Positions 1-61,922 of a stretch of 64,000 nt of DNA are shown piece by piece. Source of the stretch: Janthinobacterium sp. PC23-8 (GTDB lineage Bacteria > Pseudomonadota > Gammaproteobacteria > Burkholderiales > Burkholderiaceae_D); assembly GCF_002250505.1 (NCBI RefSeq), contig NZ_NJGY01000001.1, forward strand, positions 715,632-779,631, in the 5' to 3' direction. A program made the translations under genes and the position numbers. The notes under the pieces are model-generated. The model was not told where the DNA came from. It worked only from the letters and a program-made list of their open reading frames with translations, and made no database searches. The stretch's first letter is position 1, and each line of letters starts with the position of its first letter.

Positions 1-1830
1 GCCGCAAAACCCAATGCCAGTTCGCGCTGCGCAATGGTGGCAGTGGTGGCGCCGCTGGTCGAACCCAGCACATAGTTGGCCGCATCCACGCCGGACAGGC
101 TGGCGTTCTGCACCGTCACGCCCTTGTTGGCACCGGCGTTTTTATCGGCAAACGCTGCGTTCGCACTTGCTGTCAGAACGTCGCCAGCGACGCGGTTGTC
201 GGTCACAAGAACCGTGGCGGCGGTGCCGCCGTCATAGGTCTTGCCGGCGGCCGCAAAGCCCAGCGCCAACGCGCGCTGGGTAATCGTCGCAGTGGTGGCG
301 CCGGTGGTCGAACCCAGTACATAGTTGGCCGCATCCACGCCGGACAGGCTCGCGTTCTGCACCGTTACGACTTTATTGGTACCTGCATTCTTGTCGGCAA
401 ACGCTGCGTTCGCACTTGCTGTCAGCACGTCACCGGTCACGCGGTTGTCGCTAACAAGAACCGTGGCGGCGTTATTGCCGTCATAGGTCTTGCCGGCGGC
501 CGCAAAGCCCAGCGCCAACGCGCGCTGGGTAATCGTGGCAGTGGTGGCGCCGCTGGTCGAACTCAATACATAGTTGGCCGCATCCGCACCGGACAGGGCG
601 GCGTCCTTCACGGTAATGGTTTTACCCGTACCGGCATTCTTGTCGGAAAACGCACTGGTGGCCTTCGCCGTCAGCACGTCGTCCTTTACACGGTCATCGC
701 TGATCGTCACCACTGCTGCCTTGCCGCCGTCGTAGGTCTTGCTGGCACCGGCAAACGCCAGATTCAGGGTGCGCTGCGTGATATCGGCCGTGGCCGTGCC
801 GCCGGTATTGCCCAACGTATAGTTGGCCGCATCCGCACCGGACAGGGCGGCGTCCTTCACGGTAATGGTTTTACCCGTACCGGCATTCTTGTCGGAAAAC
901 GCACTGCTGGCATTCGCCGTCAGCACGTCGTCCTTTACACGGTCGTCGCTGATCGTCACCACTGCTGCCTTGCCGCCGTCGTAGGTCTTGCTGGCACCGG
1001 CAAACGCCAGGTTCAGGGTGCGCTGCGTGATATCGGCCGTGGCCGTGCCGCCGGTATTGCCCAACGTATAGTTGGCCGCATCCGCACCGGACAGGGCGGC
1101 GTCCTTCACGGTAATGGTTTTACCCGTACCGGCATTCTTGTCGGAAAACGTACTGGTGGCATTCGCCGTCAGCACGTCGTCCTTTACACGGTCATCGCTG
1201 ATCGTCACCACTGCTGCCTTGCCGCCGTCGTAGGTCTTGCTGGCACCGGCAAACGCCAGGTTCAGGGTCCGCTGCGTGATATCGGCTATTGCCGTGCCGC
1301 CGGTATTGCCCAGCGCGTAGTTGGCCGCATCCGTGCCCGCAAGGCTGGCTCCCGTCACCGTGATGGGTTTGCGGCTGCCCGCATTCTTGTCGCCAAACAC
1401 GGCATCAACCGACGCCGTCAGCACGTCATCCTTGACGCGATCATCGGTGACCGTCACGGTCGCTGCCGTGCCGCCATCGTAGGTTTTGTTAACACCAGTA
1501 AAGCCAAGATTGAGCGTGCGCGCCGTAATGGCGGCACTGGTCCTGCCTTCGGCGGTATTGAGCACATAGTTGCCGGCGTCGTTGCCACTGAGGTTGCTGC
1601 CCGTCACGCTGTAGTTGACGTCCTTGGCCGCGCCCACGTTCTTGTCGGTGAAACTGGCCGAGGCGCCCGACAGCTGGACCTGGTCGCCGCCGATCACGCC
1701 GGTCAGGCTGCCGCTGAGGCTGGCGTTGGTGTTGCCGTCGTAAGTTTTATTGGCCACGCTCACGCTGCCAAGGCTCACCCTGGCGCGGCTGATCTCTGCC
1801 GTACCGCTGCCGGTCGCCGCCAGACTGTAG
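1..1830 (-). repeat. Tandem 249-bp coding repeats (YDG modules) in tpsA
   Basis: The same anchor (tagttggcc or tagttgccgg on the + strand) recurs at 73, 322, 571, 820, 1069, 1318 and 1567, exactly 249 bp (83 codons) apart. A more diverged copy follows at 1828 after 261 bp. The three copies between about 580 and 1320 are nearly identical at the DNA level, which points to recent duplication. Because the period is a multiple of three, gain or loss of a unit keeps the frame. The array continues past the left edge. Confidence 0.95.
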
Positions 1831-4800
1831 TTGCCCAGCTCGTTACCCGACAAGGCCAGGCCGGTGAGATTGACGGCCTTGGCGGTGCCGGCGTTCTTGT
1901 CGACGAATTGCGCGGTGCCGGTCACGCCCAGGGTGTCGCCGCCGACGGCGTTGTCCAGGCTGAGGGTCGCATTGGCAAAGCCAAGCTGGCCGTCATACAC
2001 CTTGCTGCCGCCGAGGATCACGCTCAGGGGGCGCGGCGTGATGGCCACGCTGGTGGTACCGGCATAGCTGATATCGTATTGGGTCGACCACAGGCCGCCC
2101 AGCGCATAAGTGCCGACATTGCGAGCTTCGCCGTAACTGGCCGTGCCGCTGGCAGCCACGTCGCCATTGAGCAGGCCGGCATAGCTGAGCGGACCGACGC
2201 CTGCCACCTGGCCATCGTAGACCCTGCTGGCCGCGCCGCTGGCGCTCACCTGCAAGGGCGTCAGGAACGCCTTCAACAGCGGCGTGGTATGGCCCTCGTA
2301 AATGCGCCAGACGGGATTGTCGTCAAAATTGAAGCCGCCGAAGCTGCTTTGCTTCTGCATGTCCTGAGCATTGCGCCCGCTGGCTCCACCCCGGTCGAAA
2401 GGCGTGCCGGCCGTATCGGCATTGAAATAGGCCGCCCCCACAACGGCGCCCGCATCGGCGCGCCCGACCACGGCGCCCACCGTATCCGATGCAAAATCAC
2501 TGCCCGACACGCTACCGCTGAAATACAGCCGGCGGGCGCTGCTGCCCGCCACGCTCCAGCCGATCACGCCGCCGATGTTCTGTCGGGACAGGATCTCGTC
2601 GACCGGACTGGCCAGGCCAACGGTGCCGGTTGCATAGGCGTCGGCGATGGCGCCGCCATTACGTCCGACCAGGCCGCCGACACTGGCCGCGCCGCCCACG
2701 GCGCCGGTGGCGTACGCTTGCGAAATATCGCCATCGTTATTGCCGACCAGGCCTCCGACCCGGCTGCCGGAGGCGTTGACGTCGCCAGTGGCGCGCGCCA
2801 CCGTGATGGTGCCGCGCTGCTCACTGCCGTCGTCAATGCCGAGGTTGGAGCCGACCAGACCGCCCACGTACGAACCGTTCATATTGCCGGAAGCGAAGCC
2901 CGTCACAGTGCCGCTGGCACTGGCGTTGCGGATCACCCCTCTGTTGGCGCCCACCAGGCCACCGACATAGATGTTGCCGCTGACCGCCATGCTGCTGCTC
3001 ACGTTGCTGATCGTGCCGCCGACATTGTTGCCCACCACCGCGCCCACGTTCTTGCCACCGGCCACGCTGCCACCCACCATGGTCAGGTTGCGGATGGTGC
3101 CACCCTGCAAACTTGCAAACAAGCCGCTGCCAAAAGACGAGGGGCTGTCGCCGCCGTTGATGGTCAGGCCGCTGATGCTGTGACCAGCGCCGTCGAACGT
3201 GCCTGCATACGGTGCGCCGTCACCATCGAACAGCGGCGCGAAACCGGTGCGCCCGCTGCCCCGGTTCCAGTTGGCCGTGCCGCTGGCGTCGATATTGGCC
3301 GCCAGAATGTAATTCTTGTTGTAGGTTTGCGTGGCTATACCTTGCAGGCCATACACGTCGGCGATCTGGTACGGCGTGACCAGGTCGCCATTGCCGCCCT
3401 TGACGCGCAAGAAGCTGCCGCCGTCTATCCTGAAGCTGTTGGCCGAAAACGGCGGCAGGCTGGCGCTATTCTGGACCCAGTTGCCCCTTTCGAGGGAAAA
3501 CTCGCCACTGACATTGAGCGGGTTGATCGAGGTGATCAGATTGTCGCCGCCGCCACCATCGCCGCCAACGTTCAGCTTCAGGTTATGCAGCACGGTGAAA
3601 AAACTGTTCAGATTGATGCCGACGCCGCTACTCAACTCGAGATTGGTGACGTAATCGCTGATGCTCAGCGCGCCGGTTTGATTGATGGTGCCGGCACTGC
3701 TGCCGCCGACGGTCAGCGTATTGGCGACGACCTGGAATAATTCGGCATTGGTCAACCCCAGGCTGTCGGTCGGCTTGTCGCCGACCACGCCCAGTGTAAT
3801 CGGGCGCCCGAAAGTCATCGGCGTCAGCGTGACGCTCTTGCCTCGGATGTAGCTGCCATAACTGATATTGTCCGCTTCCAACCGCAGCGTGCCGCCGGTC
3901 AGTTGATTGCCGTCGGCGCTGCCGCTCAAGCTGATGCCGCCGCTGCTGTCATTGGCGCGCAAGGTCAAGTTGCCGCCACCGGCGTTGACGGTGCCGGCGC
4001 CGGTCACGCTGGCGCCCGACAGGTTGGTGGTGCCGCCATTGGTGCTGATCGCCGCATTCAGATTGACAACGCCGGTGGCGCTGGCGGCGTGGCCGCTGCT
4101 CGCGTCATTGGCCGACAAGGTCACCGCACCGCCCCGGGTGGTAATCGGCGCGTTGACATCGATGCGCTCGCCGGCAGTCGCAGTGATGCTCACGCCGTCG
4201 CTGGCCATATTGATGGGGCGGTTGAAGCTGATGCGGTGCGTCGCCTGCAAGGTGACGGGGGTGGTGGCAGAGGAAATCGTGCCAGCGCCGATATAGGCGG
4301 TGCCCGCCGACGGCGCATCGTCGAACTGGTCCACGTTTTGCAACTGGCCGTAGAAGTTGCCGTAGTAGGGGATCGTGATGTTGATGCCAGTGTCAGGATT
4401 GTAGCTGACGCCACAATTACTGAAGCTGTTGTTGTAGACGCAGTTGCTGTCGACGATCTCGATATCGTAGGGATCAAGCAGCCAGTTGCCGGCCTTGCCG
4501 CGCCGCGCACCGGTATCGACACGGATGCCGTCGACGGCAAGGTAGTGGCCCGAGGTTTCCACCAGGCCGCCATTGCCCGAGGCCGCGCCGCCGCGCGCCG
4601 AAATGCTGCCGAACACGCGCGCCGTCTCATTGCCCCACACGATGACCTTGCCGCCGTCGCCGCTTTGAATGGCGTCCGCGGCAATGGTGGCGTCCTTGCC
4701 GACAGCCACCTGGCGCGCATTGGCAATCGCCGGGTTCTTGCCCTGGTAGTCGCCGCCCAGCAAGACCGTGCCGCCGCCAAGGGCGCCGCTGGCGTCGACC

Positions 4801-5723
4801 CTGGCATTGCCCTGCATGCCGACCTGCTCACCCAATACCGTGATCTCGCCGCCCTTGCCCGCCGCACTGGTGGCGCTGGTCATGCTGCCGTTTTCCAGCA
4901 GCGTCTTGCCCGTGGCTTTGAGCACGATCTTGCCGTTCTCGCCGACCACCGCGCTGTTGGCGTTGAGCACGCCGCGCTGGTTCAGCAGCGCACCCAGCAT
5001 GCCGATGCGCCCGCCCTGCGCCACCACCTGGCCGATATTGATGGCCTGGTCGGTGGGCGCCGACAACACCACGCGCAAGTCAGGATTGGCCGCGTCGGCC
5101 AGTTGCACGCTGTGACCGGCGGCCAGCAGCACATCGCCATTGGGCGCGGTGAGGATGCCGCTGTTTTCCACGTTAGGCGCGATCAGCAATATCTGCCCGC
5201 CGCTGCCGGCGTTGATCGAGCCCTGGTTGATGACGGCCCCGGCCTTGTCGCCGGCATTGAAGTTCATCTTGCCAGCCAGGAAATCCTGGTTCGACAGCGC
5301 CAGGCTCGACGCCACCAGGCCTGCCACATCGACCTTCGCATCGCGGCCGAACAGCACGCCATTCGGATTGATCAGGAACACTTTGCCATTCGACTGCAGG
5401 GAACCGAGGATCTTGCTGGGGTCTTGTCCCGTAATGCGGTTGAGCACGCTACTGCCGGCGTTTTGCTGGAGAAAGCGCGTGATCTCGCCCGGATTGACGG
5501 AAAAACTCTGCCAGTTGATGATGGTATTGGGCGTGTTGGTGATCGTAAACAGATTGCCCTGCTGATTGAACGTGGCCTGACCATGCACCACTTGCGGCAA
5601 GACCGGATTGGCGTGGGCAGCATTGAAACAGGCGGCAATCAAGAGGGCCAGCGCGGTGCGGCGCAGCGGCGGCTCGAAGGATCGGCCAGCGGCCAGGGTG
5701 CGCAACGGTTTTGGTTTGGTCAT
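1..5723 (-). CDS. TpsA-type filamentous haemagglutinin-like exoprotein, 3' end missing (YDG repeat adhesin)
   Basis: Open without a stop from the ATG at 5723 to the left edge, about 1,907 codons, so the C-terminus lies outside. A Shine-Dalgarno AAGGA sits 9 nt before the ATG. Residues 1-38 look like an extended signal peptide ending in NAAHA. Next comes a TPS secretion domain with the family hallmark NPNG at residues 119-122 (INPNGVLFG). The middle holds beta-helix-like sequence and several GLUG-like repeats (VGGLVG, IGGVIG). The rest is a tandem array of YDG repeats (KTYDGG). The neighbour upstream encodes the matching TpsB pore, 32 nt away, so the two form one operon. The likely role is a secreted or surface-anchored adhesin; the target is not visible. 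Family is secure, function inferred. Confidence 0.93.
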   Translation of the reverse strand, partial: MTKPKPLRTLAAGRSFEPPLRRTALALLIAACFNAAHANPVLPQVVHGQATFNQQGNLFTITNTPNTIINWQSFSVNPGEITRFLQQNAGSSVLNRITGQDPSKILGSLQSNGKVFLINPNGVLFGRDAKVDVAGLVASSLALSNQDFLAGKMNFNAGDKAGAVINQGSINAGSGGQILLIAPNVENSGILTAPNGDVLLAAGHSVQLADAANPDLRVVLSAPTDQAINIGQVVAQGGRIGMLGALLNQRGVLNANSAVVGENGKIVLKATGKTLLENGSMTSATSAAGKGGEITVLGEQVGMQGNARVDASGALGGGTVLLGGDYQGKNPAIANARQVAVGKDATIAADAIQSGDGGKVIVWGNETARVFGSISARGGAASGNGGLVETSGHYLAVDGIRVDTGARRGKAGNWLLDPYDIEIVDSNCVYNNSFSNCGVSYNPDTGINITIPYYGNFYGQLQNVDQFDDAPSAGTAYIGAGTISSATTPVTLQATHRISFNRPINMASDGVSITATAGERIDVNAPITTRGGAVTLSANDASSGHAASATGVVNLNAAISTNGGTTNLSGASVTGAGTVNAGGGNLTLRANDSSGGISLSGSADGNQLTGGTLRLEADNISYGSYIRGKSVTLTPMTFGRPITLGVVGDKPTDSLGLTNAELFQVVANTLTVGGSSAGTINQTGALSISDYVTNLELSSGVGINLNSFFTVLHNLKLNVGGDGGGGDNLITSINPLNVSGEFSLERGNWVQNSASLPPFSANSFRIDGGSFLRVKGGNGDLVTPYQIADVYGLQGIATQTYNKNYILAANIDASGTANWNRGSGRTGFAPLFDGDGAPYAGTFDGAGHSISGLTINGGDSPSSFGSGLFASLQGGTIRNLTMVGGSVAGGKNVGAVVGNNVGGTISNVSSSMAVSGNIYVGGLVGANRGVIRNASASGTVTGFASGNMNGSYVGGLVGSNLGIDDGSEQRGTITVARATGDVNASGSRVGGLVGNNDGDISQAYATGAVGGAASVGGLVGRNGGAIADAYATGTVGLASPVDEILSRQNIGGVIGWSVAGSSARRLYFSGSVSGSDFASDTVGAVVGRADAGAVVGAAYFNADTAGTPFDRGGASGRNAQDMQKQSSFGGFNFDDNPVWRIYEGHTTPLLKAFLTPLQVSASGAASRVYDGQVAGVGPLSYAGLLNGDVAASGTASYGEARNVGTYALGGLWSTQYDISYAGTTSVAITPRPLSVILGGSKVYDGQLGFANATLSLDNAVGGDTLGVTGTAQFVDKNAGTAKAVNLTGLALSGNELGNYSLAATGSGTAEISRARVSLGSVSVANKTYDGNTNASLSGSLTGVIGGDQVQLSGASASFTDKNVGAAKDVNYSVTGSNLSGNDAGNYVLNTAEGRTSAAITARTLNLGFTGVNKTYDGGTAATVTVTDDRVKDDVLTASVDAVFGDKNAGSRKPITVTGASLAGTDAANYALGNTGGTAIADITQRTLNLAFAGASKTYDGGKAAVVTISDDRVKDDVLTANATSTFSDKNAGTGKTITVKDAALSGADAANYTLGNTGGTATADITQRTLNLAFAGASKTYDGGKAAVVTISDDRVKDDVLTANASSAFSDKNAGTGKTITVKDAALSGADAANYTLGNTGGTATADITQRTLNLAFAGASKTYDGGKAAVVTISDDRVKDDVLTAKATSAFSDKNAGTGKTITVKDAALSGADAANYVLSSTSGATTATITQRALALGFAAAGKTYDGNNAATVLVSDNRVTGDVLTASANAAFADKNAGTNKVVTVQNASLSGVDAANYVLGSTTGATTATITQRALALGFAAAGKTYDGGTAATVLVTDNRVAGDVLTASANAAFADKNAGANKGVTVQNASLSGVDAANYVLGSTSGATTATIAQRELALGFA

Positions 5724-5755
5724 GATGTTTTATCCTTGGGGCTCAGTACAGTACA

Positions 5756-7363
5756 TCAGTACGACAGCGCAACTCTGAAATGCAGGCGGTTGGCGTCGCG
5801 GCGCCCCGTCTGGCCGGGGTTGACCACATGGGCGTAATCGAGCTGTAGATTGGCGTAGCGGCTCAGCAAGATACGCAGGCCCAGGCCCGCCGAACCGATC
5901 GCCATGCTGTTGATTTCGGCGGGCAGCGCATGATTGCGGCGCACCCAGCCCGTGTCGTAGAAGGCCAGCGCGCGGCACTGGTAGCTGCCCTCGCCGCACC
6001 AGTTCGGTGTGTACAGTTCCAGGTTCAGATTCGCGCCACTGTCATTGGCCACTTCGCGTTCGAGAAAACCGCGCACGGTGGCCGCGCCGCCAACGCCGAA
6101 CTGCTCGCCCGGCACCAGCGCATCGGCCGTGTACTGGCCGTTGAACAGCGCGCGCCATTGCCAGTCCTGCTCCAGCACCTGGCTGTAGCTGCCACTGACG
6201 CGCACGGTGCTGTAGCCGGCCTTGGCGCCGGCACGCGCCAGGGTGAAGTCGCGCTGATTGCCATTGTTGCCACCAGGAATATTACGCGCCAACGTCACCC
6301 CCGCGCTGGCCTCGCCGCGCGGTAAACTCCAGGTACCGATATAGGCGATGCTGACGGGATGCACGGTCACGTCCGTGCCCAGTTCCGTGCCGAAGAAGCG
6401 CAGGCTGTTGCGGTAGGCCTTGAAATCCAGGCCATAGACCAGCTTTGGTTCATAGTCGTCGCGCTTGCCGAAATTCTGGTTGTAGTGCACGCCGGCGGTG
6501 GCGCCGCGGCCGCTGACGGCCAGGTCGACGATGCCGGCCGACACCGTGCCCGAATCGACGTTGGAATAACTGGCAAACACATCCACCGAGTCGCCGAGCG
6601 CATACAGCGGCACGTGGTAGCCAACGCCATACACGCCGACCTGCCTGCTGTGTTCAACCGACGTGGTGTATTGCAAGCTGGCCACATGGTCGCGCCCCCA
6701 CAGGTTGGCGTGCTGCAGCACCACGCCGGCATGGGTTTTGCCGGAGTCCTTGCTGCCGGTATTGTCGACGTTGAGCGTGGCTTTCCAGGCGCGTTCATCG
6801 ACCACCGTGATGCCGGCGTCGACCGTGCCTTCGGCCTCGCCGCCGGCCAGCTTGACTTCGAGCTTGCGGGCCGGGTTTTCATTGGCCAGCTTCAGGCTTT
6901 CGCCCAGCGCCGGCATGTTCGGCGTCTGGCCCTCGACCAGGGCCGGCAGCGCGCGGCGCACATTGGCCTCGTCCACATACTGGTTGCCGGAAATGACGAC
7001 CTTGCCGACCTGGGTCTGCACCACGTTCAGGCGAACGGCACCCTGGTCGAGCTCCTGCTCCGGCAAGCCCACCAGCACCATCGTATAGCCGCGCTCGCGG
7101 TAAGCGTTTTCCAGCGCCTCGACGGCCTGCTGGATATCGCCAAAGTCGCGCTGCCGGCCGGCAAACGGCGCCACCAGTGCCTGCACCAGTGGCGCGCCGA
7201 GCAAGGTGTCGCCACTGACCTCGTAACGGGTGATATCGAAACGTGGAATACCAGCGTCGGGCGTACCGGCGTCGGCAGCGGCTTGCGGAGATTGGGCGTT
7301 TGCGCATGCCGCGCACAGCAACAGCGCGGAACCTGCAAGCAGGCGCACCAGACGATCATTCAT
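5756..7363 (-). CDS. TpsB outer-membrane transporter (ShlB/FhaC/HecB family)
   Basis: 535 residues from the ATG at 7363, chosen because it begins a clean signal peptide (charged start, LLAGSALLLCAAC, ANA cleavage). An in-frame ATG at 7387 would add eight residues. A POTRA domain (about 39-190, with the FDITRYEVSGDTLL start) is followed by a 16-strand barrel region. The conserved L6-loop motif VRGF is at about 430-433, and the protein ends in an aromatic residue (ALSY) as outer-membrane barrels do. In this family the POTRA domains recognise the TPS domain of the partner exoprotein and the barrel exports it. The partner gene lies immediately downstream on the same strand. Confidence 0.93.
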   Translation of the reverse strand: MNDRLVRLLAGSALLLCAACANAQSPQAAADAGTPDAGIPRFDITRYEVSGDTLLGAPLVQALVAPFAGRQRDFGDIQQAVEALENAYRERGYTMVLVGLPEQELDQGAVRLNVVQTQVGKVVISGNQYVDEANVRRALPALVEGQTPNMPALGESLKLANENPARKLEVKLAGGEAEGTVDAGITVVDERAWKATLNVDNTGSKDSGKTHAGVVLQHANLWGRDHVASLQYTTSVEHSRQVGVYGVGYHVPLYALGDSVDVFASYSNVDSGTVSAGIVDLAVSGRGATAGVHYNQNFGKRDDYEPKLVYGLDFKAYRNSLRFFGTELGTDVTVHPVSIAYIGTWSLPRGEASAGVTLARNIPGGNNGNQRDFTLARAGAKAGYSTVRVSGSYSQVLEQDWQWRALFNGQYTADALVPGEQFGVGGAATVRGFLEREVANDSGANLNLELYTPNWCGEGSYQCRALAFYDTGWVRRNHALPAEINSMAIGSAGLGLRILLSRYANLQLDYAHVVNPGQTGRRDANRLHFRVALSY

Positions 7364-7479
7364 GTGTGAGAATTCTTGTGGTTGCATGGCCAGCCAGGCG
7401 CGGCTGGACCATCAATTGATTAAAAGCAAAGTTTAGACGGATTCTGATTTCCAGTCAGAAATTTCTATGCTACCGATGG

Positions 7480-11552: not shown

Positions 11553-12437
11553 ATGAAATTCACCTTCAGGGGAGTGCGCGGTTCGATCCCCTCTCCCGGC
11601 CCGCACACGGTGCGCTACGGCGGCAACACGACCTGCATCGAAGTGCGCACGGCAGGCGGCGCCCTGCTGATACTCGACGGCGGCAGCGGCATCTTTGCCC
11701 TGGCCAGCGCACTGCCGCGGGGCCCGGTCGCGGCGCACATCCTGATCACCCACAGCCATTGGGACCATATCCACGGCCTGCCCATGTTCGCGCCGCTGTT
11801 CATGCACGGCAGCCATGTGCGCCTGTATGGTGCGGCAGACGCGTTTGGTAACGGCATCGAACACGTGATGGCCACGCAGTTGCAGAACAATTATTTTCCC
11901 GTCAGCGAAGCGGCCATGGCGGCCGAGATCGACTACCGCACCGTGGCTGTGGGCGAGCGCATGGCGGTGGCCGACGCGGTGGTGACGAATGCCGAAATGA
12001 ACCATCCGGTGATCAACCTCGGCTACCGCATCGAATCGGGCGGCGCCGCGCTGTTCTTCAGCGGCGACCATGAGCCGTTCGACAATCCGCATGCCGCCGG
12101 CACCTGCGCACATGCGGCGCGCCAGTCATCGATCGATGCGCGCCAGGCGGCCATCGACGCGGCCATTCACGGCGTCGACGCCCTGATCATGGACTGCTCG
12201 TACACGCGCGACGAATATGCAGCCAAGCGCGGCTGGGGTCATGGCACTTTTGACGCCGCCTTTGAACTGGCCCTGCGCTGCGGCGCCAAGCAACTGTACT
12301 GCACCCACCACGAACCGACCCGCAGCGACGATCAGTTGGAGGCCGTGTTTGCCGACGTGATGGCGCGCTTTGCCGGGCGGCTGGGCGCGTTGCAGGTATT
12401 CCTGGCGGCCGAGGGGATGACGGTCAACCTGGCTTAA
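11553..12437 (+). CDS. Metallo-beta-lactamase-fold hydrolase
   Basis: 294 residues, ATG at 11553 with a weak AAGG upstream. The metal-binding motif HSHWDH is at about residue 69-74, with further ligand candidates in FSGDHE and CTHHEP near the C-terminus. The N-terminus (FRGVRGSIPSPG, then RYGGNTTCIEV) is typical of the PhnP/RNase Z-like branch that includes cyclic-nucleotide phosphodiesterases. It is divergent from the HD-GYP/cyclase pair across about 180 bp. A role in degrading the product of that cyclase is an inference from context only. Its stop codon overlaps the stop of the converging ATPase gene by two bases (cttaag). Confidence 0.85.
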   Translation: MKFTFRGVRGSIPSPGPHTVRYGGNTTCIEVRTAGGALLILDGGSGIFALASALPRGPVAAHILITHSHWDHIHGLPMFAPLFMHGSHVRLYGAADAFGNGIEHVMATQLQNNYFPVSEAAMAAEIDYRTVAVGERMAVADAVVTNAEMNHPVINLGYRIESGGAALFFSGDHEPFDNPHAAGTCAHAARQSSIDARQAAIDAAIHGVDALIMDCSYTRDEYAAKRGWGHGTFDAAFELALRCGAKQLYCTHHEPTRSDDQLEAVFADVMARFAGRLGALQVFLAAEGMTVNLA

Positions 12438-15046
12438 GCCGGTGTATTTGGCTTTGCTTGCGTTGCAGTCAAACGATCAAACATGCGTCTTGTCGCGCCC
12501 TGCACTTCGGGTTCAAGTTCAGCTAGCATATCGGCACGCCCCTCAATCGCTGCTTCGAAGGCGAGAATCAAGGGTTTTGCATGTTGCTCATAACCCGACT
12601 GCCGCATCTCAAAGAGAATTAACACTGCGGTATTTGGCTGGGACAACAGTGGCACCAAAAAACCTTCGACGAAATTTTTACTGATCAATACTTCAGCTAT
12701 GTCTTCAGCATCCTCTAACACATGAGACAGAAATTTCTTTACAGCACCCATTTCACCAGCATGTATCGATTGACAAACCTCTTTCAGTCTCAACCGCAGG
12801 CGTATCTCGGCACGACGTTCCTTCCATTCGGGGATCTGGTTAGAATGCAATATCGCGCCTTGATCATATGCTGATAATGCGTTTTGATCACGCCCCATCA
12901 TTTCGAGTACCAGCCCCAGCAAATTCCAAGTAGTCGCCTCGTTGGGAGCGAGCCTCACTGCGTCGCGGAAAATGATCTCTGCTTCTTCAAGCCGACTAAA
13001 ATGTAGTATTAAAAGACAACCTAGCGAGATTAATGGCTCTACACTAGATTCGTCGAGTTCTTTCGCCTTTCGATAACTTGCTTCCGCTTCTTCGTAAAGC
13101 TGTAACTTCTCATTCCAATCACCAATTGCAAGCCAAGACCGCACATTGGAAGGGTTGAGTTCAATTGCCTTGCGCAAGGCGGCTTCTGCTTCCTCATAAC
13201 GACTTGATTGCTTTGTAAGCATAGCACCTAGCGCAAGCCATGGATCGGCAGCTAACGGCATGCTTTCAATTGCCTTGCGATATATTTTCTCCGCCTCATC
13301 AAAACGCTGCAAATACAAATCCAACAACATTCCAAACAATAACCACGGGAAATCAACCGAGTCAATTTCTATGGCTTTACGATATGCAAATTCAGCTTCT
13401 TCATAGCGATTCAAACTGCCGGATAGTAAATTGGCAAGATATATCCATGCCTTAGGGTCTCTTTCGTTGCTAATCGTAGCCTGTCTAAATGCATTTTCAG
13501 CCTCAGAAAAATTACCACTTCTGCAAGCAAGAATACCTTTTTCAATCAAAAATTTAGCCGAAAAAACTAGTGAAGGCAGCGCATCTAAAGATGCTGAAGG
13601 ATAAACATCAACCGACGGGAGATACTCGTCCAGATTCCCCCCATGATTTCTTACGTGCGATTGCAAGCGATCGGTGCCGAAAGCTTCTAACTCACCGCGA
13701 TGAGAAGCGGCCTCTTGCATGGCTGCCACTGCAAACGCAAATTTAGCATCAGCCAACGCACTTGCTCCACAATCCTCCTTCAACTTCTCACGCAACTCGT
13801 TGGCATCGTACATAGCCTCAAAAAACTTGGTCAGCCCAATAACATTCTGACGAATCCGCCGCGTACCGCGCATCTGCAACCATAGTCGAAATAACTGCTC
13901 CGCAATCCGGTATTGGGTACGGCCGTGATCGGCGGACTTTTCCACCAGTCCTTCATTTTCAAGTATCGCCAATTGGGCGGAAACGGTGGTGGTCGGCAAG
14001 CCGGAGTGACCGCCGATTTCGGCAGCCGTATGACCAAATCGCAAGCCATCGGCGGCGGCGATGCCGTACACGGCCAGCGCATGCATGATGACTTGCGCTT
14101 GCTCCGACAAATCTTCTATCCGTGCCTTGTAGTACGGCGTGGTGATATCCATCAGGCGCTCAAAATCTTCCACCGCGCGGCTGTTTGGACCACTGCGCAA
14201 TAGCTCAAAAATGAGTCCCAGCGCGCGCGGATTGCCACCTGTCAGTTCAAACAGGGCCTCGATGCGGCCAGGGCGCGCACGCAGGCGCTCCTGCAAGTCA
14301 GGCAAGCGCTGCGCTTCGGAAAGCCGATCAAGCACCAGACGCGCCTCATCCAGACTCAACTTGCCCAGGCGCTTGGGCAGGAAGAAATCATAAAAGGCCT
14401 TGTCGTAATCCTTGAAGGGTGCCGACAGGCGTACGGAGCCGCCAATGACAATCGGGGAGGTGCTGGTCGAGAGTGCTTCGCGCAAGGCCCAATAGGCGGG
14501 CGCATGCGGATCATTGAGTTTGCGGCCGTTCTTGTCGATACGCTGAAATACCATGTCGAGGTTATCGACCAGCATCACAGGGCGCAGTTTGAGCCGCGCG
14601 CACGTTTGCTGCAATAATTTGAAGGCGACATCGGATACCGGATTATTCCGGTCGTCGTTGCGGCGTGCGGTTGCAATCGCCGCCATCAAGTCATCTGCCT
14701 CCCCCTCGCGCTTCAAAAAATCGAGTTCGTCAGCAAGCGCATCGCAAGCAGCCCACCAGAAGTCGGCCAGATTTTTGACCTGATACATCTCTTCGGGGAA
14801 TGACAACGCAATCAAATGCGCGTTCAAGTCAGTATCGCGACGAATGGCAACGGCCAGCCTTTTCAGCAAGGTGGTCTTGCCAGCCCCCCGTACGCCGACC
14901 AGCAAATAGTGCTGAACGTTACCTTCCAGGGAAGCGTGCGATAACTCATCTCGCAGGAACGTAAAATCGTGTTGACGAGCAACAAAATTGGCCAGTAAGG
15001 CGTCATCGCTGAGCCAGTCGGGATTGTAGTGGGAAGTCATACTCAT
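12434..15046 (-). CDS. P-loop ATPase with winged helix and C-terminal TPR array (unknown function)
   Basis: 870 residues. The ATG at 15046 is preferred over a GTG at 15070 because an AAGGA lies 10 nt before it and it overlaps the TAA of the upstream ATPase gene. Walker A GVRGAGKTTL is at about 51-60 and Walker B LVDNLD at about 159-164. A winged-helix region (about 325-385, TTTVSAQLAILENEGLV) follows. The C-terminal half has TPR repeats recognisable by EEAEAALRKAIELNP-like units (about 500-720). The layout resembles STAND-type NTPases, but no effector domain is recognisable. The TPR part is strikingly AT-rich (47 G+C in the 120 bases 13321-13440, 39%), unlike the flanks, which suggests horizontal origin. 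Function not recognised. Confidence 0.85.
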   Translation of the reverse strand: MSMTSHYNPDWLSDDALLANFVARQHDFTFLRDELSHASLEGNVQHYLLVGVRGAGKTTLLKRLAVAIRRDTDLNAHLIALSFPEEMYQVKNLADFWWAACDALADELDFLKREGEADDLMAAIATARRNDDRNNPVSDVAFKLLQQTCARLKLRPVMLVDNLDMVFQRIDKNGRKLNDPHAPAYWALREALSTSTSPIVIGGSVRLSAPFKDYDKAFYDFFLPKRLGKLSLDEARLVLDRLSEAQRLPDLQERLRARPGRIEALFELTGGNPRALGLIFELLRSGPNSRAVEDFERLMDITTPYYKARIEDLSEQAQVIMHALAVYGIAAADGLRFGHTAAEIGGHSGLPTTTVSAQLAILENEGLVEKSADHGRTQYRIAEQLFRLWLQMRGTRRIRQNVIGLTKFFEAMYDANELREKLKEDCGASALADAKFAFAVAAMQEAASHRGELEAFGTDRLQSHVRNHGGNLDEYLPSVDVYPSASLDALPSLVFSAKFLIEKGILACRSGNFSEAENAFRQATISNERDPKAWIYLANLLSGSLNRYEEAEFAYRKAIEIDSVDFPWLLFGMLLDLYLQRFDEAEKIYRKAIESMPLAADPWLALGAMLTKQSSRYEEAEAALRKAIELNPSNVRSWLAIGDWNEKLQLYEEAEASYRKAKELDESSVEPLISLGCLLILHFSRLEEAEIIFRDAVRLAPNEATTWNLLGLVLEMMGRDQNALSAYDQGAILHSNQIPEWKERRAEIRLRLRLKEVCQSIHAGEMGAVKKFLSHVLEDAEDIAEVLISKNFVEGFLVPLLSQPNTAVLILFEMRQSGYEQHAKPLILAFEAAIEGRADMLAELEPEVQGATRRMFDRLTATQAKPNTPA

Positions 15047-16278
15047 TACAGCGTATTCCTTCTCATCCACCAGCGGCGCAACGGTTCCAGCCGGAACCGG
15101 TAGCGTTTGTTACCCGATTTTTCATCAGGCCACCAGTACGCATCGCGTTCGAGTATGTCGCGCAGGTTGATAAAGATGCGCCGCGCGTCTTCAGGCAGCA
15201 CACTGGGCAGACGCTCTTCGATTATGTTCAGCAATGCCTCTGGCCTCACGCCAAGCGGATCGTTGGCAGCGAAATTGAGCAGGGCGATCGCATGCCCGGC
15301 ACTGGCTCGGTCCAGCTGCTGTTCCAGTCTGGTTATCCAGTGATGAAAGTCATTGTCACTGCCGGGCTGCACCATCGTCTCTATCGCAGCGTCGATCAAC
15401 GTGCCGGCGCCAATGCCGGGGTTAGCCACCATCAGACTGCGCAAATGGTGAAAGGCCGTTTGCAGATAGTAAGGCTGCGACCATTTGATGGCGTCCACCA
15501 TGCTGCGCGCATCGTCTTCATGGAATGCCATCTGATAGCGGCCAGCCAGCGCCATCAGCATGCCGACGGCCACTTCATCTTTAAATGCCGGCAGTCCCTG
15601 ATGGCTCAAGCTATTGATGGTATCGGCCATGCCATGCTGCTGTACCAATGTATCAAGCCCGATCGAACCGGAAACGAGCCATCGCACACTCTGCGCGCCT
15701 GGCAAACCACGCACATCGTTGCGGAACCAGTCAAGAAAACGACGCACCCGCTGCACGCCGGTGACAGGATCGCTACGCATGATATTGAACAGCATGATAG
15801 GCAGCTCATCGATGTAGATCAGCCACCGTTGCTCCACCTGTGCAATCAATTGCAAAACTTCACAACCCACCTTGGTCCACTCCTCCGTCGCCCCTTCGGC
15901 AATTTCCACTCCTACACCGGCGGCACAGGGAACGGAAAGCTTGATGGACTTGATGCGACTTGCAACGCTGGCAAGTGCGGCAGAAATGGTGCTGGTCACT
16001 TTCGCACCGAGGGAGGCCAGTTCTGGCCTCAGTGCACTATCAAGTTTTTCAAGAAAAGCTCGTTCATCAATGCAGGAGGCGACATTGATTTCGACGCTGC
16101 GCCAGCCATCAGCACGCACCTTTTGCATGACAGCACGCCCGATGGAAGTTTTTCCGATGCGCCGTGGTCCAAGCAACAGAATATCGTCATTCGCCAAAAT
16201 GTCAGTCAAACGCATGACTTCAAGTTCGCGACCAAAAAAATTACGGCCCTCCACTGGCGCTCCAGCGATGTTATCCAT
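15046..16278 (-). CDS. P-loop ATPase, partner of the downstream ATPase-TPR protein (unknown function)
   Basis: 410 residues from the ATG at 16278; a TTG lies two codons upstream. Walker A GPRRIGKTS is at about 37-45, Walker B WLIYIDELP at about 152-160, and a sensor-like WLVSGS follows. The C-terminus (about 330-410) looks like a winged helix (NLRDILERDAYWW, then RYRFRLEPLRRWW), as in archaeal-type ATPases of the STAND/MNS group. The stop overlaps the start of the TPR-ATPase gene (TAATG), so the two are translationally coupled and probably work together. Nothing in the sequence names the process. Defence, stress sensing and regulation are all open. Confidence 0.84.
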   Translation of the reverse strand: MDNIAGAPVEGRNFFGRELEVMRLTDILANDDILLLGPRRIGKTSIGRAVMQKVRADGWRSVEINVASCIDERAFLEKLDSALRPELASLGAKVTSTISAALASVASRIKSIKLSVPCAAGVGVEIAEGATEEWTKVGCEVLQLIAQVEQRWLIYIDELPIMLFNIMRSDPVTGVQRVRRFLDWFRNDVRGLPGAQSVRWLVSGSIGLDTLVQQHGMADTINSLSHQGLPAFKDEVAVGMLMALAGRYQMAFHEDDARSMVDAIKWSQPYYLQTAFHHLRSLMVANPGIGAGTLIDAAIETMVQPGSDNDFHHWITRLEQQLDRASAGHAIALLNFAANDPLGVRPEALLNIIEERLPSVLPEDARRIFINLRDILERDAYWWPDEKSGNKRYRFRLEPLRRWWMRRNTL

Positions 16279-16314
16279 GATCAAACTTTCAGAAATGCGC
16301 TATGAAATTTAAGC

Positions 16315-16330
16315 ACTAAGAAATTTTAGT
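16315..16330. promoter_or_regulatory. Imperfect palindrome upstream of the ATPase pair
   Basis: ACTAA at 16315-16319 and TTAGT at 16326-16330 form inverted arms in a very AT-rich stretch 37 bp before the ATPase start codon. It could be an operator or part of the promoter. No regulator is known, and short AT-rich palindromes arise by chance. Confidence 0.3.
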
Positions 16331-16450
16331 ACTCTATTTTTATAGCGTCAATGTTTTTCATGCCAATCAGGATGGTGCTGTGTTGGACAGCGAACAGTCT
16401 GCTGCGCCAACAATGTGCATGATGAACCTTCATTACCCAAGGAGAGCACC

Positions 16451-16621
16451 ATGACCCAGCAAAGCGAAAAAGCGCGCGAACAGCAGCAGCGCGAAGATCA
16501 GCAAGCCCAGCATGAAGCGAACAAAAGCCGCCAGCAGGCCGAGCAGGACAAAGGCGCGATCCGCCAGAATGACGGCCTGAAGGAACATCAAGGTGGTGAC
16601 AAGGGACCACGCGGCCAGTAA
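16451..16621 (+). CDS. Small hydrophilic protein of unknown function
   Basis: 56 residues from the ATG at 16451, which has a good ribosome site (AAGGAGAGCACC) directly before it. The protein is almost entirely Gln, Glu, Lys, Arg, Asp and Gly with no hydrophobic core, so it should be disordered in solution. Composition resembles small stress-associated hydrophilins, but no family is recognised. It is followed closely by a rho-independent terminator, so it is a single-gene unit. Two other disordered proteins are encoded near 56-57 kb in this window. Confidence 0.7.
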   Translation: MTQQSEKAREQQQREDQQAQHEANKSRQQAEQDKGAIRQNDGLKEHQGGDKGPRGQ

Positions 16622-16681: not shown

Positions 16682-16927
16682 ATGAAAAATCTGCTGACCA
16701 TCGCCGGCCAGGCCCTGCTTGCCGGCCTGGCGACCGCCGTGCTCGGCTTCGTGGCGCTCGAAGTGCTGCCCTGCTCCTAGTTCGGCAGCGCGTCCGAAGG
16801 CGCTTGCGGCTACGGCGCCACCCTTGCCGTGATGGGTGCCTCCCCCTTCGTGTTCCTGGCGCTGCTGGTGGGGCTGCGCATCGGCTATGCGCGCCGGCGC
16901 GCAAGACCGGCGCAGAACGGGGGATAA
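16682..16927 (+). pseudogene. Small membrane protein ORF interrupted by an in-frame TAG
   Basis: From ATG 16682 the frame encodes a hydrophobic helix (MKNLLTIAGQALLAGLATAV), then meets TAG at 16778-16780 after 32 codons. The same frame then stays open to TAA at 16925-16927 and encodes a second hydrophobic segment (SPFVFLALLVGLRIGYARRR). Two helices split by one amber codon, with coding-like sequence on both sides, suggest a former 81-residue membrane protein. The TAG could derive from TGG (Trp) by one transition (context PCS-stop-FGSA). A sequencing error or a genuine 32-residue peptide cannot be excluded. Confidence 0.6.
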
Positions 16928-57113: not shown

Positions 57114-57818
57114 TTACGATTGGTTTTTGATCGATGGTATCAGACACTGAGCGGTATCTGGGCCCTGCCCCGGCACGCGAAAAACAGCCGAGTCCGCTGT
57201 TACATAGACCTGTTCGTCAGGCAAGGGCTTGAGCGCGTGACCGCCCGTAAACGCGCCAAACGCCGGCAGGATGGCGCGCTGCGGCCCCAGCAAAAAGCAG
57301 GGCAGGCGCAAGGTCTCGCGCGCGGCGCGCAAGTGAAACACGGGGTGCACATGGCCGGCGAGCACATAGCCTTCCGTTTCCAGATCGGGGTGATGGCATA
57401 GCGCAAACGGCCCCATCCGATGCGGTTCGTCAAGCATGGCGATGCCCAGGCTGGCTGGCGGATCACCCGCATGCAGGTCGTGGTTGCCGCGCACCAGGCA
57501 CAGGCGCAAAGCCGGATGGCGCGCGCGCCAGCGCTGCATGGCCGCCAGGGTGGCGGGCGCATGGGCCGCCCTGGCGTGCAAAAAATCGCCGAGAAACACG
57601 ATTTCCTCGCAAGGATAAGCCTCGATCAATTGCTGCAATGCCTGCAAGTTTTCAGTCGTCGTGCCGTGCGGCACCGGCACACCGAGCGAGCGAAACGCGG
57701 TGGCCTTGCCGAAATGGATGTCGGCCACGATCAGGGTCTTGCGCGCCGGCCAGTAAATGGCCTTGCTGGCCAGTAGCCACAGCGTTTCGCCGGCCAGTGC
57801 AACGATGCTATGCGTCAT
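57114..57818 (-). CDS. pdeM: Ligase-associated DNA damage response endonuclease PdeM
   Basis: 234 residues. Calcineurin-type metallophosphoesterase motifs are present: [27 protein letters not shown] and LAGHVHPVF. The start overlaps the helicase stop by 4 nt. In this conserved four-gene set PdeM acts with the ATP-dependent ligase, an exonuclease and a helicase. It is the last gene of the operon. Confidence 0.93.
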
Positions 57819-60280
57819 GCTGCCGCTTTTTCCAGTTCGCGCACCAGGCGCGCCACCCGGTCCGACAGTTTTTCGGTGGTCAGTTTTTCGCGGAAACGCT
57901 CGACCATCAGGCCGAAGGCAAACGGCGAGGCGCGCTGCAAGGGGTGCACGCTCAACTGGCGCTGATGCAGCTCGCGCAAGGTGGCGCGCAAGCGCGTCAG
58001 TTCCAGTTCCTGCTCCAGCACTTCGCGCTGCGCCTGCGTGAGCAGCAGATTGCCCGCGTCATGCTTGCGAAACACTTCAAAGAACAGCGACGACGAAGCC
58101 TGCAACTGGCGCGTGCTTTTCGGCTGGCCCGGATAGCCCTGGAATACCAGGCCGGCAATGCGGGCGATTTCACGAAAGCGCCGCTGCGACAGTTCGGTCG
58201 CATTCAGGCTGGCCAGCACGTCTTCCAGCAGATTATCCAGGCTGAACAGGGCAACGGCGTTGCCCGTGCCAAAGGCAAACAGCGGCGCAAAATCGAGGTC
58301 GTCGGCGCCCAGCAATTCAAAACCGTAATCGTTGACGGCGATCGACAGGGTGGCCGGCTGCACGCGCGCAATCCGGTACGCCAGCAGGGATGCCAGGCCC
58401 AGGTGCACCGAGCGGCCGGCGAACGGATACAAAAACAGATGCCGGCCTTCGCGGCTGGACAAGGTTTCGACCAGCAGGCTGGCGCGCGTTGGCAGGCTGG
58501 ACCATTTCTGCTGGATCGCCAGCAAGGGCGCCAGCGCGCGCATTTCCGGTCCCGTCGCCGTGCCCTCCTGCGCCTGCTGCAACTGGTCGAGCACGGCGTG
58601 CGCCAGTTCCGACGACAGCGGCATCTTGCCGCCCTGCCAGCGCGGCACGGCGCCACGGCTGCCGGTGGCGCGCCGCACATAGGCCGTCATCTCGTGCACG
58701 CGCACGAATTCAAGGATGCGTCCGCCAAACAGGAAATGGTCGCCTTGCTTCAGGCGCGAAATAAACGATTCCTCGATGCTGCCGATCTTGCCGCCGCTCA
58801 TGTATTTCACCTGGATAGCCGACTCGGACACAATCGTGCCGATGCTCATGCGGTGGCGCCGCGCCAGCGCCGCGTCCGGCACGCGATACACCTCCTCTTC
58901 GTCCGGCAGCACGCGCCGGTATTCGGGATACACGGTGAGGCTCTGCCCGCCGCGTGCGACAAAGTCCAGCGCCCATTGCCATTCGTCAAGCGTCAATTGC
59001 CGGTACGACCAGGCCGTGCGCACTTCCTGGTACAGCTCTGGCGACCGGAAGCCGCCGCCGAGCGCGATCGTCACCAGATGCTGCACCAGCACATCGAGCG
59101 GTTTGTCGGGCACCTGGCGCGCTTCGAGCTGGCCTTGCGCCAGCGCCTGGCGCGCGCCGGCCGCTTCCAGCAATTCCAGGCTGTTGGTCGGCACCAGGGT
59201 CACGCGCGAGACGCGCCCCGGCGCGTGGCCGCTGCGCCCGGCACGCTGCACCAGTCGCGCAATGCCCTTCGCGCTGCCGATCTGCAATACCCGCTCGACC
59301 GGCAAAAAATCCACGCCAAGGTCCAGGCTGGAGGTGCACACCACGGCCTTTAATGTCCCTGATTTCAGGCTCCGCTCGACCCACTCGCGCACCTCGCGCG
59401 CCAGGGAACCATGGTGCAGGGCAATCAGCCCGGCCCAGTCCGGCCGCGCATCGATCAGGTGCTGGTACCAGATTTCAGCCTGCGAGCGCGTATTGGTAAA
59501 CACCAGAGTGCTGGCGCTGGCCTCGATCTGCGCAATCAAGGGCTGCAGCATCTGGATGCCCAGATGGCCGCCCCAGGGAAAGCGCATCGGGCTCAAAGGT
59601 ATCAGACTGTCGACCACGATGCGCTTGCGCACCTTGCCTTCGACCAGCACGCCGGCGTTGTGTTCACCGAGCAGTACCTCCTGCGCCTGCCGCAAGTTGC
59701 CCAAGGTAGCCGATACGCCCCAGGTAATCAATGCCGGATTCCAGCGCCGCAAGCGCGCCAGCGCCAGCTGCACCTGCACGCCGCGCTTGCTGCCCAGCAG
59801 TTCGTGCCACTCGTCGACAATCACCGTTTCAAGCAGATTGAAGCGTTCATGGGCAGCGGCCTGGCTGAGCATTAACGACAGGCTTTCGGGAGTCGTTACC
59901 AGCACATCTGGCCAGGCTGCCGACTGGCGCGCGCGCTGTGCCGCGCTGGTGTCGCCGGTGCGCGCCTCGATGCGCCAGCCAGGGGCCAGCGCTTCGCCTG
60001 ATGCCTGCAGCGCGCGCACGGTATCGGCCGCCAGGGCGCGCATCGGTGTGATCCACACCACGCGCAAGCCCTGCTTGCGGCTGTTGCGCACCAATCGATC
60101 AGCGCGCAACAAGGCGCCGAACCAGACGGCATAGGTCTTGCCGGAACCGGTGCTGGCGTGCAGCATGCCGGACTGGCCACTGGCCGCCGCGCGCCAGACG
60201 GCGCGCTGGAACGGAAACACGGTCCAGCCTTTTGCCGCGAACCAGTCATCGATGCGCTGCGCCAGCGCGCTTTTGCTCAC
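57815..60280 (-). CDS. Ligase-associated DEXH-box helicase (Lhr-like)
   Basis: 821 residues, GTG start at 60280. Walker A is [13 protein letters not shown], motif II is VDEWHE, and motif VI is [13 protein letters not shown] long C-terminal region follows, typical of Lhr/Lhr-like 3'-5' helicases. The family acts with the adjacent ligase and nucleases in DNA repair. It lies 10 bp after the ligase gene and overlaps pdeM by 4 nt. Confidence 0.93.
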
Positions 60281-60290
60281 GGTATTACTT

Positions 60291-61922
60291 TCATTGAGTA
60301 CCCGTCAACAGGGCTTTCAGCGTGTCGAGCGTATCGGCGTCGACTATCGCCTTGTCGTCGCGCTGACGCAAGATGCGCGGAAAGCGCACGGCGATGCCGG
60401 CCTTGTGGCGGTTTGAGGCGGCGATGCCCTCGAAGCCGATCTCGAACACCAGCGTCGGCTTGACGCTGCGCACGGGGCCGAATTTTTCGATGGTCGTCTT
60501 GCGGATCACGGCATCGACCTTGCCGATTTCAACGTCGCTCAAGCCCGAATAGGCCTTGGCAAACGGCACCAGTTTGCGCTGGCCGTTCTCGTCGTCATCC
60601 CATACGGCAAAGGTATAGTCGGTGTACAGCGAAGCGCGCCGGCCATGGCCGGCCTGGGCGTAGATCAGCACGGCGTCGACGGAAAAAGGATCGATCTTCC
60701 ATTTCCACCAGGTGCCCACATCCTTGGTGCGGCCCACGCCATAGGCAGCCGATACCGCCTTGAGCATCATGCCTTCCACGCCGCGCGCGCGCGACTCCTC
60801 GCGCATCGCCGCCAGGTCTTCCCAGCTGCCGGCCGCGATGCGCGGCGACAGGCGCAGCACCGGGTCGGCTATCTTTTCTATCAACGTTTCCAGCAGTGCC
60901 CGCCGCTCGTGCTGCGGCAGGTGGCGGATATCGACGCCGTCGAGTTCCAGCACATCGTAGGCGACCAATGCCGCCGGCAATTCGGCCAGCAGCTTGCTTG
61001 ATACCGTCTTGCGGCCCATGCGCTTTTGCAGGTCGGCAAATGGCGCTGGCATGTCGCCCGGCCGCCAGATCACAATTTCGCCATCGATCACGCAGCCTTC
61101 CGGCAAGGCCAGGCGCGCCAGTTCGGGAAAGCGTTCGGTGATCAGTTCCTCGCCGCGCGACCACAGCCAGCTGGCGCCGTCGCGGCGCAGCAGCTGGGCC
61201 CGCATGCCATCGTATTTCCATTCGACAAGCCAGTCGCTTACCTCGCCCAGGGTCTCCGGCGCTGCCTGCAGCGGGTGAGCCAGGAAGAACGGATAGGACT
61301 GGCCGCCGCGCAACGCATGTTCGCCGTCGGACTCCTCGCTGATCAGTTTCAAGAAACCGGCGCCGGTGGGGCTGACCTTGCCATCGGTCCAGCCCATCAG
61401 GCGCTGCGCGATCAGCTTGCTGTCGACCGCCGCGATGGCGCTCAGCGCGCGCGTGACCAGCAGTTTCGAGACACCAACCCGGAAGCCGCCGCCGATCAGC
61501 TTGGTCAACAGAAAGCGTTCGCGTGTTTCCAGTTCATCCCAAAACCCTAGCAAGGCGCTGCGGATGGTCTCGGGCGCCGCGCCGCGCAAGGGCGCGATGC
61601 GCTGCTCGACCCATGCGGCCAGGCCGATATCGCTGACGTGAGCAGGCGCGGGCAGGATCAGGGCAATGGTTTCGGCCAGATCGCCCACCGCGTGATAAGC
61701 CTCGTCGAACAGCCAGGTATCGAGCACGGCCGCTTCGGTGGCGTATTCGCGCAGCAATTTGATCGGCACGGCCTGGCGCGGCTTGCCGCCGGCCAGAAAA
61801 TACACGGCCCAGGCCGCATTTTCGGGCGCGGCGCTGGAAAAATACGCCTGCAGGGCGGCGAGCTTGCGGCTGGTGGAGGTGGTTTCGTCGAGCTCGGCGT
61901 ACAGACGGGCAAACTCACGCAT
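60291..61922 (-). CDS. ATP-dependent DNA ligase
   Basis: 543 residues from the ATG at 61922; a longer frame to 62045 runs inside the exonuclease gene and reads as noise. The adenylation lysine is Lys236 in [10 protein letters not shown], and motif IV lies in [16 protein letters not shown]. An N-terminal DNA-binding domain precedes it. ATP-dependent ligases of this operon type are accessory to the NAD-dependent LigA. The start overlaps the exonuclease gene by 8 nt. Confidence 0.95.

Follow-up and report, generated by a model that had tools for sequence, protein, structure and literature searches.

Two neighbouring genes in Janthinobacterium sp. PC23-8 encode P-loop ATPases, and we asked whether they form a system of their own and what that system might do. 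The analysed DNA, a stretch of 64,000 nucleotides, is referred to here as the window. The original prediction, made from the sequence alone, had described a compositionally distinct and translationally coupled pair, an ATPase-winged helix (wH)-TPR protein and an ATPase-wH protein, as a candidate for an undescribed system. Both open reading frames were found at the claimed place and both contain a P-loop. The two ATPase genes therefore stand as proposed, but their order had to be corrected: the smaller gene, here termed S, comes first, and the TPR protein, here termed Lg, comes second. The genes and the parts of Lg are as follows.

16278-15046 from ATG (410 aa), or 16284-15046 from TTG, minus strand: S, first gene of the operon, ATPase-wH.
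Stop at 12434, start at GTG 15070 (878 aa) or ATG 15046 (870 aa), minus strand: Lg, second gene, ATPase-wH-TPR-cap.
14141..15013, minus strand: Lg ATPase core with GVRGAGKTT, LVDNLD, R197 and TGGNPRALG; 72-82% identity in four near relatives.
13811..14140, minus strand: Lg winged helix of the ArsR/MarR type; 78-87% identity in four near relatives.
12836..13555, minus strand: Lg TPR array; 43.6% G+C; 42% and 24% identity in two near relatives.
12467..12700, minus strand: Lg C-terminal cap; 54-60% identity in four near relatives.

The ATG of Lg overlaps the stop codon of S in a TAATG at 15048-15044, in line with the translational coupling. Near relatives share the MDNIAG start of S, and the ATG at 16278 is accordingly the likelier one. 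The distinct composition of the pair was also borne out, with a G+C content of 52.3% against 62.7% across the remaining window. The minimum over 300 bp is 37.7% in the pair (from 13275, in the TPR part) and 43.7% among the stretches examined elsewhere in the window, and 12061-12120 reaches 71.7%. Within Lg, GC3 is 0.66 in the ATPase, 0.63 in the wH and 0.39 in the TPR part, where G+C is 43.6%. Since the pairing of the two genes is itself conserved in distant bacteria, they are not a chance arrangement of open reading frames.

S contains a Walker A motif (PRRIGKTS), a Walker B motif (YIDELP), a sensor-1-like motif (SGSIGL) and a basic C-terminus with an invariant W. Its relatives are 19-69% identical in alignments; all 18 S sequences have the Walker B D-E and 16 of the 18 have R188, and the S of locus L014 is without an internal stretch of ~70 residues. 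The solved sequences closest to the S profile are SSO1545 (2fna, E 1.5e-9) and PAB2304 (2qen, E 3.8e-6). S scored above no Pfam, NCBIfam or PADLOC family cut-off, the nSTAND1/3/6 scores being below theirs. An AlphaFold model of S, built on a five-sequence alignment, was poor (pLDDT 57, pTM 0.44). The top fold matches of this weak model were 2qen, archaeal ORC2, MalT, ORC5 and 2fna, followed lower down by RdrA, TnsC and NRC4. Of the two winged helices that had been predicted, that of Lg is supported by MarR/ArsR-type matches. For S, a wH is suggested by a wH-like succession of elements at the C-terminal end of the low-confidence model and by an alignment of S to the wH part of Lg.

In Lg, the second acid of Walker B is replaced by Asn (D/E-N) in 15 of 16 sequences, the exception being the L015 Lg with Glu, and R197 is invariant in all 16. 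The best 60 of 282 PDB matches to the Lg profile include ORC4 (2e-5), ORC1 (5e-4) and Cdc6 (7.5e-4 to 5e-3), Clp ATPases that match equally well or better, and ArsR/MarR proteins. The window Lg passes AAA_22 (27.8 against a cut-off of 27) and, marginally, the ORC-CDC6-like family PF24389 (27.3 vs 27 bits, over 55 of 571 positions). Its wH matches MarR_2 and HTH_5 below cut-off, and several such matches are above cut-off in the L058 Lg. The window Lg is likewise below cut-off for NACHT and nSTAND_NTPase5. The NACHT cut-off (26.7) is passed by the Lg of L051 (38.6) and of L016 (30.2), and the L166 Lg is annotated as NACHT in RefSeq. The TPR array predicted for the larger protein is significant (TPR_8, E=2.5e-23). 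A Pfam scan of the window pair and ten Lg relatives gave no convincing match to an effector domain. A STAND/ORC-like architecture with no recognised effector is supported by the sequences and weakly by the low-confidence S model.

The cores of S and Lg are homologous to each other (333 aligned columns, P 99.2, E 1.4e-19). The two proteins have also diverged together. Their identity matrices correlate across 15 loci with an r of 0.947, which was reached by none of 5000 shuffles, and across 11 loci with an r of 0.822 (p 0.0006) when four close relatives are left out. The S family was searched for in 198 related genomes, in genome contigs and in plasmids, and S profiles were run against 369 genomes of the class and 398 of the phylum. 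An HMM analysis of 30 loci found the S family in 27, of which 26 have an adjoining Lg on the same strand. In the 26 pair loci Lg overlaps S or starts within 12 bp of it; several of these Lg are cut by contig ends, as is the S of L010. Two more Moraxella plasmid loci, L166 and L167, carry the pair. At 100 bits or more, a line chosen once the class-genome search had shown a gap from 122.7 down to 63.5 bits, S was found in 11 of the 369 class genomes and in 6 of the 398 from the phylum; both counts include the own genome. The Lg profile A6 matched the same 11 and the same 6 genomes, and genome G503 has a second S-like fragment (249.9 bits). Because most of the class genomes contributed their Lg to A6, only its absence elsewhere is informative in the class set; the five phylum genomes outside A6 provide a cleaner test of pairing. 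Collectively, these results establish a real module of tightly linked, homologous subunits that is widespread but sparse in unrelated bacteria.

Pairing this tight raises the question of a toxin-antitoxin-like or addictive pair, in which two overlapping genes repress their own expression and one of them does harm if unbalanced. The overlap or near-overlap of S and Lg would fit such a pair, as would the sporadic insertion and the repeat-bearing S promoter described below. However, both partners are ATPases with no recognised toxic domain, and the exceptions to pairing count against it. L017 has an S with an 85-aa Lg remnant, the S of L166 is split by an IS5 element beside an intact Lg, and Lg-like genes occur without S on Sphingobium and Agrobacterium plasmids (L163, 1043-4144; L164 and L165, 10001-13237), which indicates that neither gene strictly depends on its partner. 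We therefore consider an addictive pair quite unlikely. There are also three low-scoring S-like ATPases without Lg, at L061 (8601-9788), L150 (6749-7915) and L151 (6065-7186).

Phage records contained no match for the window S, the L051 S or residues 1-420 of the window Lg. Scans of viral contigs with A1, the window Lg and the L016 Lg, which reach close relatives only, found no relative, and a phage or prophage origin was rejected for the queries tried. E. coli genomes gave no match at the DNA level.

Within the genus, S is present in 2 of 40 genomes, own included (a survey within the 198 genomes), which rules out a universal housekeeping gene. The second carrier is Janthinobacterium sp. S3T4 (genome G011), where locus L011 lies on the same contig as its pair. 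The window pair is flanked by a metallo-hydrolase-like gene and a PitA-like transporter gene, both below their models' cut-offs; the transporter gene is found in all 40 genus genomes. DNA alignment with a near relative (genome G012, locus L093) delimits the following segment.

12438..16389: segment that contains the pair and is missing in the near relative.

The aligned blocks stop at window position 12437 and restart at 16390, with 18 bp between them in the relative, and at its end the left block overlaps the Lg stop. The segment of ~3.95 kb thus consists of the two genes and about 110 bp. The insertion site was compared in 38 of the other 39 genus genomes. Both flanks were located in 35 sites, and the second flank was not found in L126, L129 and L130. 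The transporter and metallo-hydrolase-like genes are separated by 57-863 bp in 31 sites. Other inserts of 2.5-4.3 kb, with neither S nor Lg, occupy the same interval in L124, L127 and L128, and the G011 site, of 4391 bp, holds the pair.

A small gene for a hydrophilic 56-aa protein (16451-16621, plus strand) is present in 8 of 38 same-genus sites. It lies between S and the transporter gene in the window (genome G000) and between the metallo-hydrolase-like gene and Lg in G011. The pair is therefore on opposite sides of this gene in the two genomes, suggesting two separate insertions. Identity between G000 and G011 is 75% in the pair DNA, 75% on the metallo-hydrolase side and 90% in the transporter gene. 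The alignments suggest two insertions into one interval, or one insertion followed by a rearrangement; loss elsewhere combined with local rearrangement is a possible alternative.

Some other features of the window were recorded alongside. A small membrane-protein-like frame at 16682-16780 (plus strand) has an in-frame TAG and is uninterrupted in L093. A very large exported protein (1-7387, minus strand) runs off the window end, and the gene adjoining it has weak Omp85/BamA-type matches below cut-off; by eye, the two look like a two-partner secretion pair. A ligase-associated DNA damage response cassette lies at 57114-62045 (minus strand), with genes for a PdeM endonuclease, a DEXH helicase and an ATP-dependent ligase, all above NCBIfam cut-offs.

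The DNA in front of S holds two overlapping features.

16297..16348, minus strand: repeat array in the S promoter, putative operator (ACGCTA, GTACTA, TAGTGC, TAGCGC).
16323..16351, minus strand: sigma-70-like promoter TTGACG-17-TAAAAT from a consensus scan, overlapped by the array.

The last three units of the window array are 16 bp apart and in register. In the clade formed by the window, L011-L014, L048 and L049, the S promoters contain TTAG[CT][AG]CTAA-like words. Two or three words in the 16-bp register, some of them degenerate, are present in all members but L014, six of seven, and L014 has one clear site. Across six aligned promoters, the array overlaps a TTGACA-17-TATGAT-like promoter and the surrounding sequence is little conserved. 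Distant members have other words, seen by eye, such as TATAGTTAAA in L016 and GTCGTACGACA in L148. The self-similarity of each promoter was compared with dinucleotide shuffles, using control promoters from the same loci defined by simple ORF calls. A p of at most 0.05 was obtained for 21 of 26 S promoters vs 18 of 82 control promoters (22%), with a Mann-Whitney value of 7.6e-9, in a set that includes near relatives and is to that extent not independent. The five S promoters that failed were those of L014, L053, L055, L059 and L149. With 1000 shuffles, the window S promoter had a p of 0.005, and three control genes of the window had values of 0.73-0.97.

The Lg-like genes of the Sphingobium and Agrobacterium plasmids were array-positive too, as were all three partnerless S-like ATPases. 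An array specific to the S-Lg pair was therefore not upheld, and the array marks the ATPase-wH group at large. Its lineage-specific form in the S promoter suggests self-regulation through the wH domains, with S or Lg as the putative binder of the repeats. Repeats that adjoin a gene with ORC/Cdc6 similarity might also be the iterons of an ORC/Cdc6-like initiator pair belonging to an integrated replicon. Yet the inserted segment contains the pair alone, the repeats overlap a promoter-like site, and two plasmids with family members have their own typed replicon, so that we regard an initiator pair as most improbable. The promoter array, the homology of S and Lg and the two-gene insertion all go beyond the original prediction.

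The TPR arm of Lg differs widely between relatives. Two Undibacterium Lg have no TPRs and keep the cap and the rest, both TPR and cap are missing from the L015 Lg (298 aa), and the L057 Lg has a long C-terminus largely without domain match. The L050 Lg contains 8.3 copies of a 120-bp unit with 96% DNA identity (repeats at 11828-12826), and the L049 Lg has 6.4 copies of a 105-bp unit at 84%. In the eight 40-aa TPR units of L050, 9 of 10 variable positions alter the amino acid. Judged from these repeats, the L050 units are a recent repeat expansion. The TPR regions of the window and of L011 gave no DNA-level tandem repeats at the default score. Kaur et al. 2020 (PMC7159879) count TPRs among the domains that form superstructures in conflict systems, and the passages concerned mention neither near-identical repeats nor the S-Lg pair.

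A role in defence had been proposed as one possibility for the pair. Five pair loci, L015, L016, L166, L167 and L149, lie beside defence genes, and three of them (L016, L166 and L167) are from Moraxella osloensis. In L016, Qat genes and a kinase gene precede the pair, and PRTase_III-A-like, ORC-CDC6-like, CARF and MTase genes follow it; the same block follows the pair in L166. A PD-Lambda-4_A/Avs4-like gene overlaps Lg in L167, and in L149 a TrlF-family gene, above the NCBIfam cut-off, begins at the Lg end. L015 has a WYL gene before the pair and DUF262 genes nearby. Profile scans of neighbours covered three batches of ten genes each and ten window genes, and other neighbours were assessed by eye; so judged, the remaining pair loci have neighbours of housekeeping or unknown type. 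Most of the case for a defence association thus comes from plasmid copies. The Lg-like genes without S adjoin PycC cyclase and E1-E2 genes on the Sphingobium and Agrobacterium plasmids, and TIR and Mov34/JAB genes are also present on the Sphingobium plasmid. These Lg-like genes form a related branch that is linked to cyclases. The five loci make a function in anti-phage or anti-plasmid conflict plausible, whereas the neighbours of the other loci count against the proposal; the pair was in any case not always beside housekeeping genes.

The same neighbourhoods bear on a regulator with no immune role. In this alternative, S and Lg would form a MalT-like transcription regulator in which the Lg TPRs sense a metabolite or stress cue, S modulates the response, and the two together act on their own promoter and perhaps on a small number of chromosomal genes. 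The ArsR/MarR-type wH in Lg, the promoter repeats before S, the fold match of the weak S model to MalT and the lone chromosomal copies of the pair are all consistent with such a regulator. However, the patchy distribution, the two-gene insertion, the changing neighbours and the fast-changing TPRs fit it poorly, and it leaves the defence neighbours of the plasmid copies unexplained. A MalT-like regulator is accordingly a serious but unlikely explanation.

The explanation that we prefer, and to which we give an even chance, is a two-gene accessory cassette encoding a hetero-oligomeric ATP switch with a TPR sensor, self-regulated and of the ORC/Cdc6-STAND class. S, with its Walker B D-E, would be the catalytic subunit, and Lg would bind ATP with the usual catalytic Glu replaced by Asn. 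The invariant R197 of Lg might act as an arginine finger for S; in ORC4 and ORC1, an arginine finger is supplied between ATPase partners. The wH domains, mainly the ArsR/MarR-like one of Lg, would bind the repeats before S and hold expression of the operon down. Through its fast-changing TPR arm, Lg would read a cue, which may be a phage, plasmid or damage signal, and the cue would shift ATP state, assembly and DNA binding, thereby turning the complex on. Once assembled, the complex could act directly, or the output could come, in some loci, from downstream defence genes. The immune role is the least certain step of this switch model. A new kind of bacterial immune switch resembling a minimal origin recognition complex seems unlikely to us: active S and a catalytically impaired, TPR-bearing Lg would sit on their own lineage-specific array, and a cue at the TPRs would release or reassemble S-Lg on the operator DNA and trigger defence, by itself or via the operon behind.

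If the preferred switch model is true, an unnamed two-gene cassette, widespread but sparse, joins the bacterial STAND-type sensors. Its unusual feature would be two homologous ATPases of unequal catalytic make-up, together with promoter repeat words that differ by lineage. The cassette would provide a small movable system for testing how STAND/ORC-type ATPases convert sensing into DNA action, and a candidate for defence surveys that is mostly located outside defence islands.

How far the pair is new was judged against known families and systems. Only generic TPR, AAA_22 and marginal ORC-CDC6-like matches were above cut-off, and a known family explaining both proteins was rejected, the matches in Pfam, NCBIfam and PADLOC being generic or partial throughout. 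For the window pair, PADLOC-DB 2.0.0 yielded partial matches only (best E 6e-5, via the TPRs); among six Lg and four S relatives, only the L050 Lg was strong, hitting a TPR model via its repeats. The literature searched, preprint servers and supplementary tables aside, contained nothing on the pair, which may be an unnamed entry in a large screen. The pair can therefore be called undescribed as far as these searches extend.

Several known systems share parts of this design. The Lg-like genes of the Sphingobium and Agrobacterium plasmids match the Lg profile over nearly its full length and have promoter repeats, but no S was found with them, and a Pycsar-type cyclase and E1-E2 genes lie alongside. 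The archaeal Walker-type ATPases SSO1545 (2fna) and PAB2304 (2qen) resemble S as the closest solved sequences to its profile. RADAR was considered as well, and its RdrB deaminase is not among the direct neighbours of the window pair. The ORC/Cdc6-type AAA+ proteins, including BREX BrxC/BrxD and the Pfam ORC-CDC6-like family, share the order of ATPase then wH. The PDB matches to the Lg profile include ORC4, ORC1 and Cdc6 as well as Clp ATPases, and those of the weak S model include archaeal ORC2 and ORC5. In contrast to these proteins, Lg adds TPRs, and PF24389 spans only 55 of 571 positions in the window Lg. The window pair also differs from BREX in its surroundings: no BREX gene was recognised beside it, with no PglZ/PglX match in the six flanking proteins and none by eye in the ORF lists; the other loci were judged by eye. 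The STAND NTPases of the NACHT/AP-ATPase/MalT type resemble Lg in having a P-loop core followed by a wH and a TPR superstructure. Lg has the wH and repeats expected of STAND proteins, its TPRs being above cut-off, whereas S and some Lg are without repeats. The window S and Lg differ from STAND NTPases in scoring below the NACHT/nSTAND cut-offs with no recognised effector, and the S-Lg pair is set apart from them by its tightly linked, homologous second ATPase.
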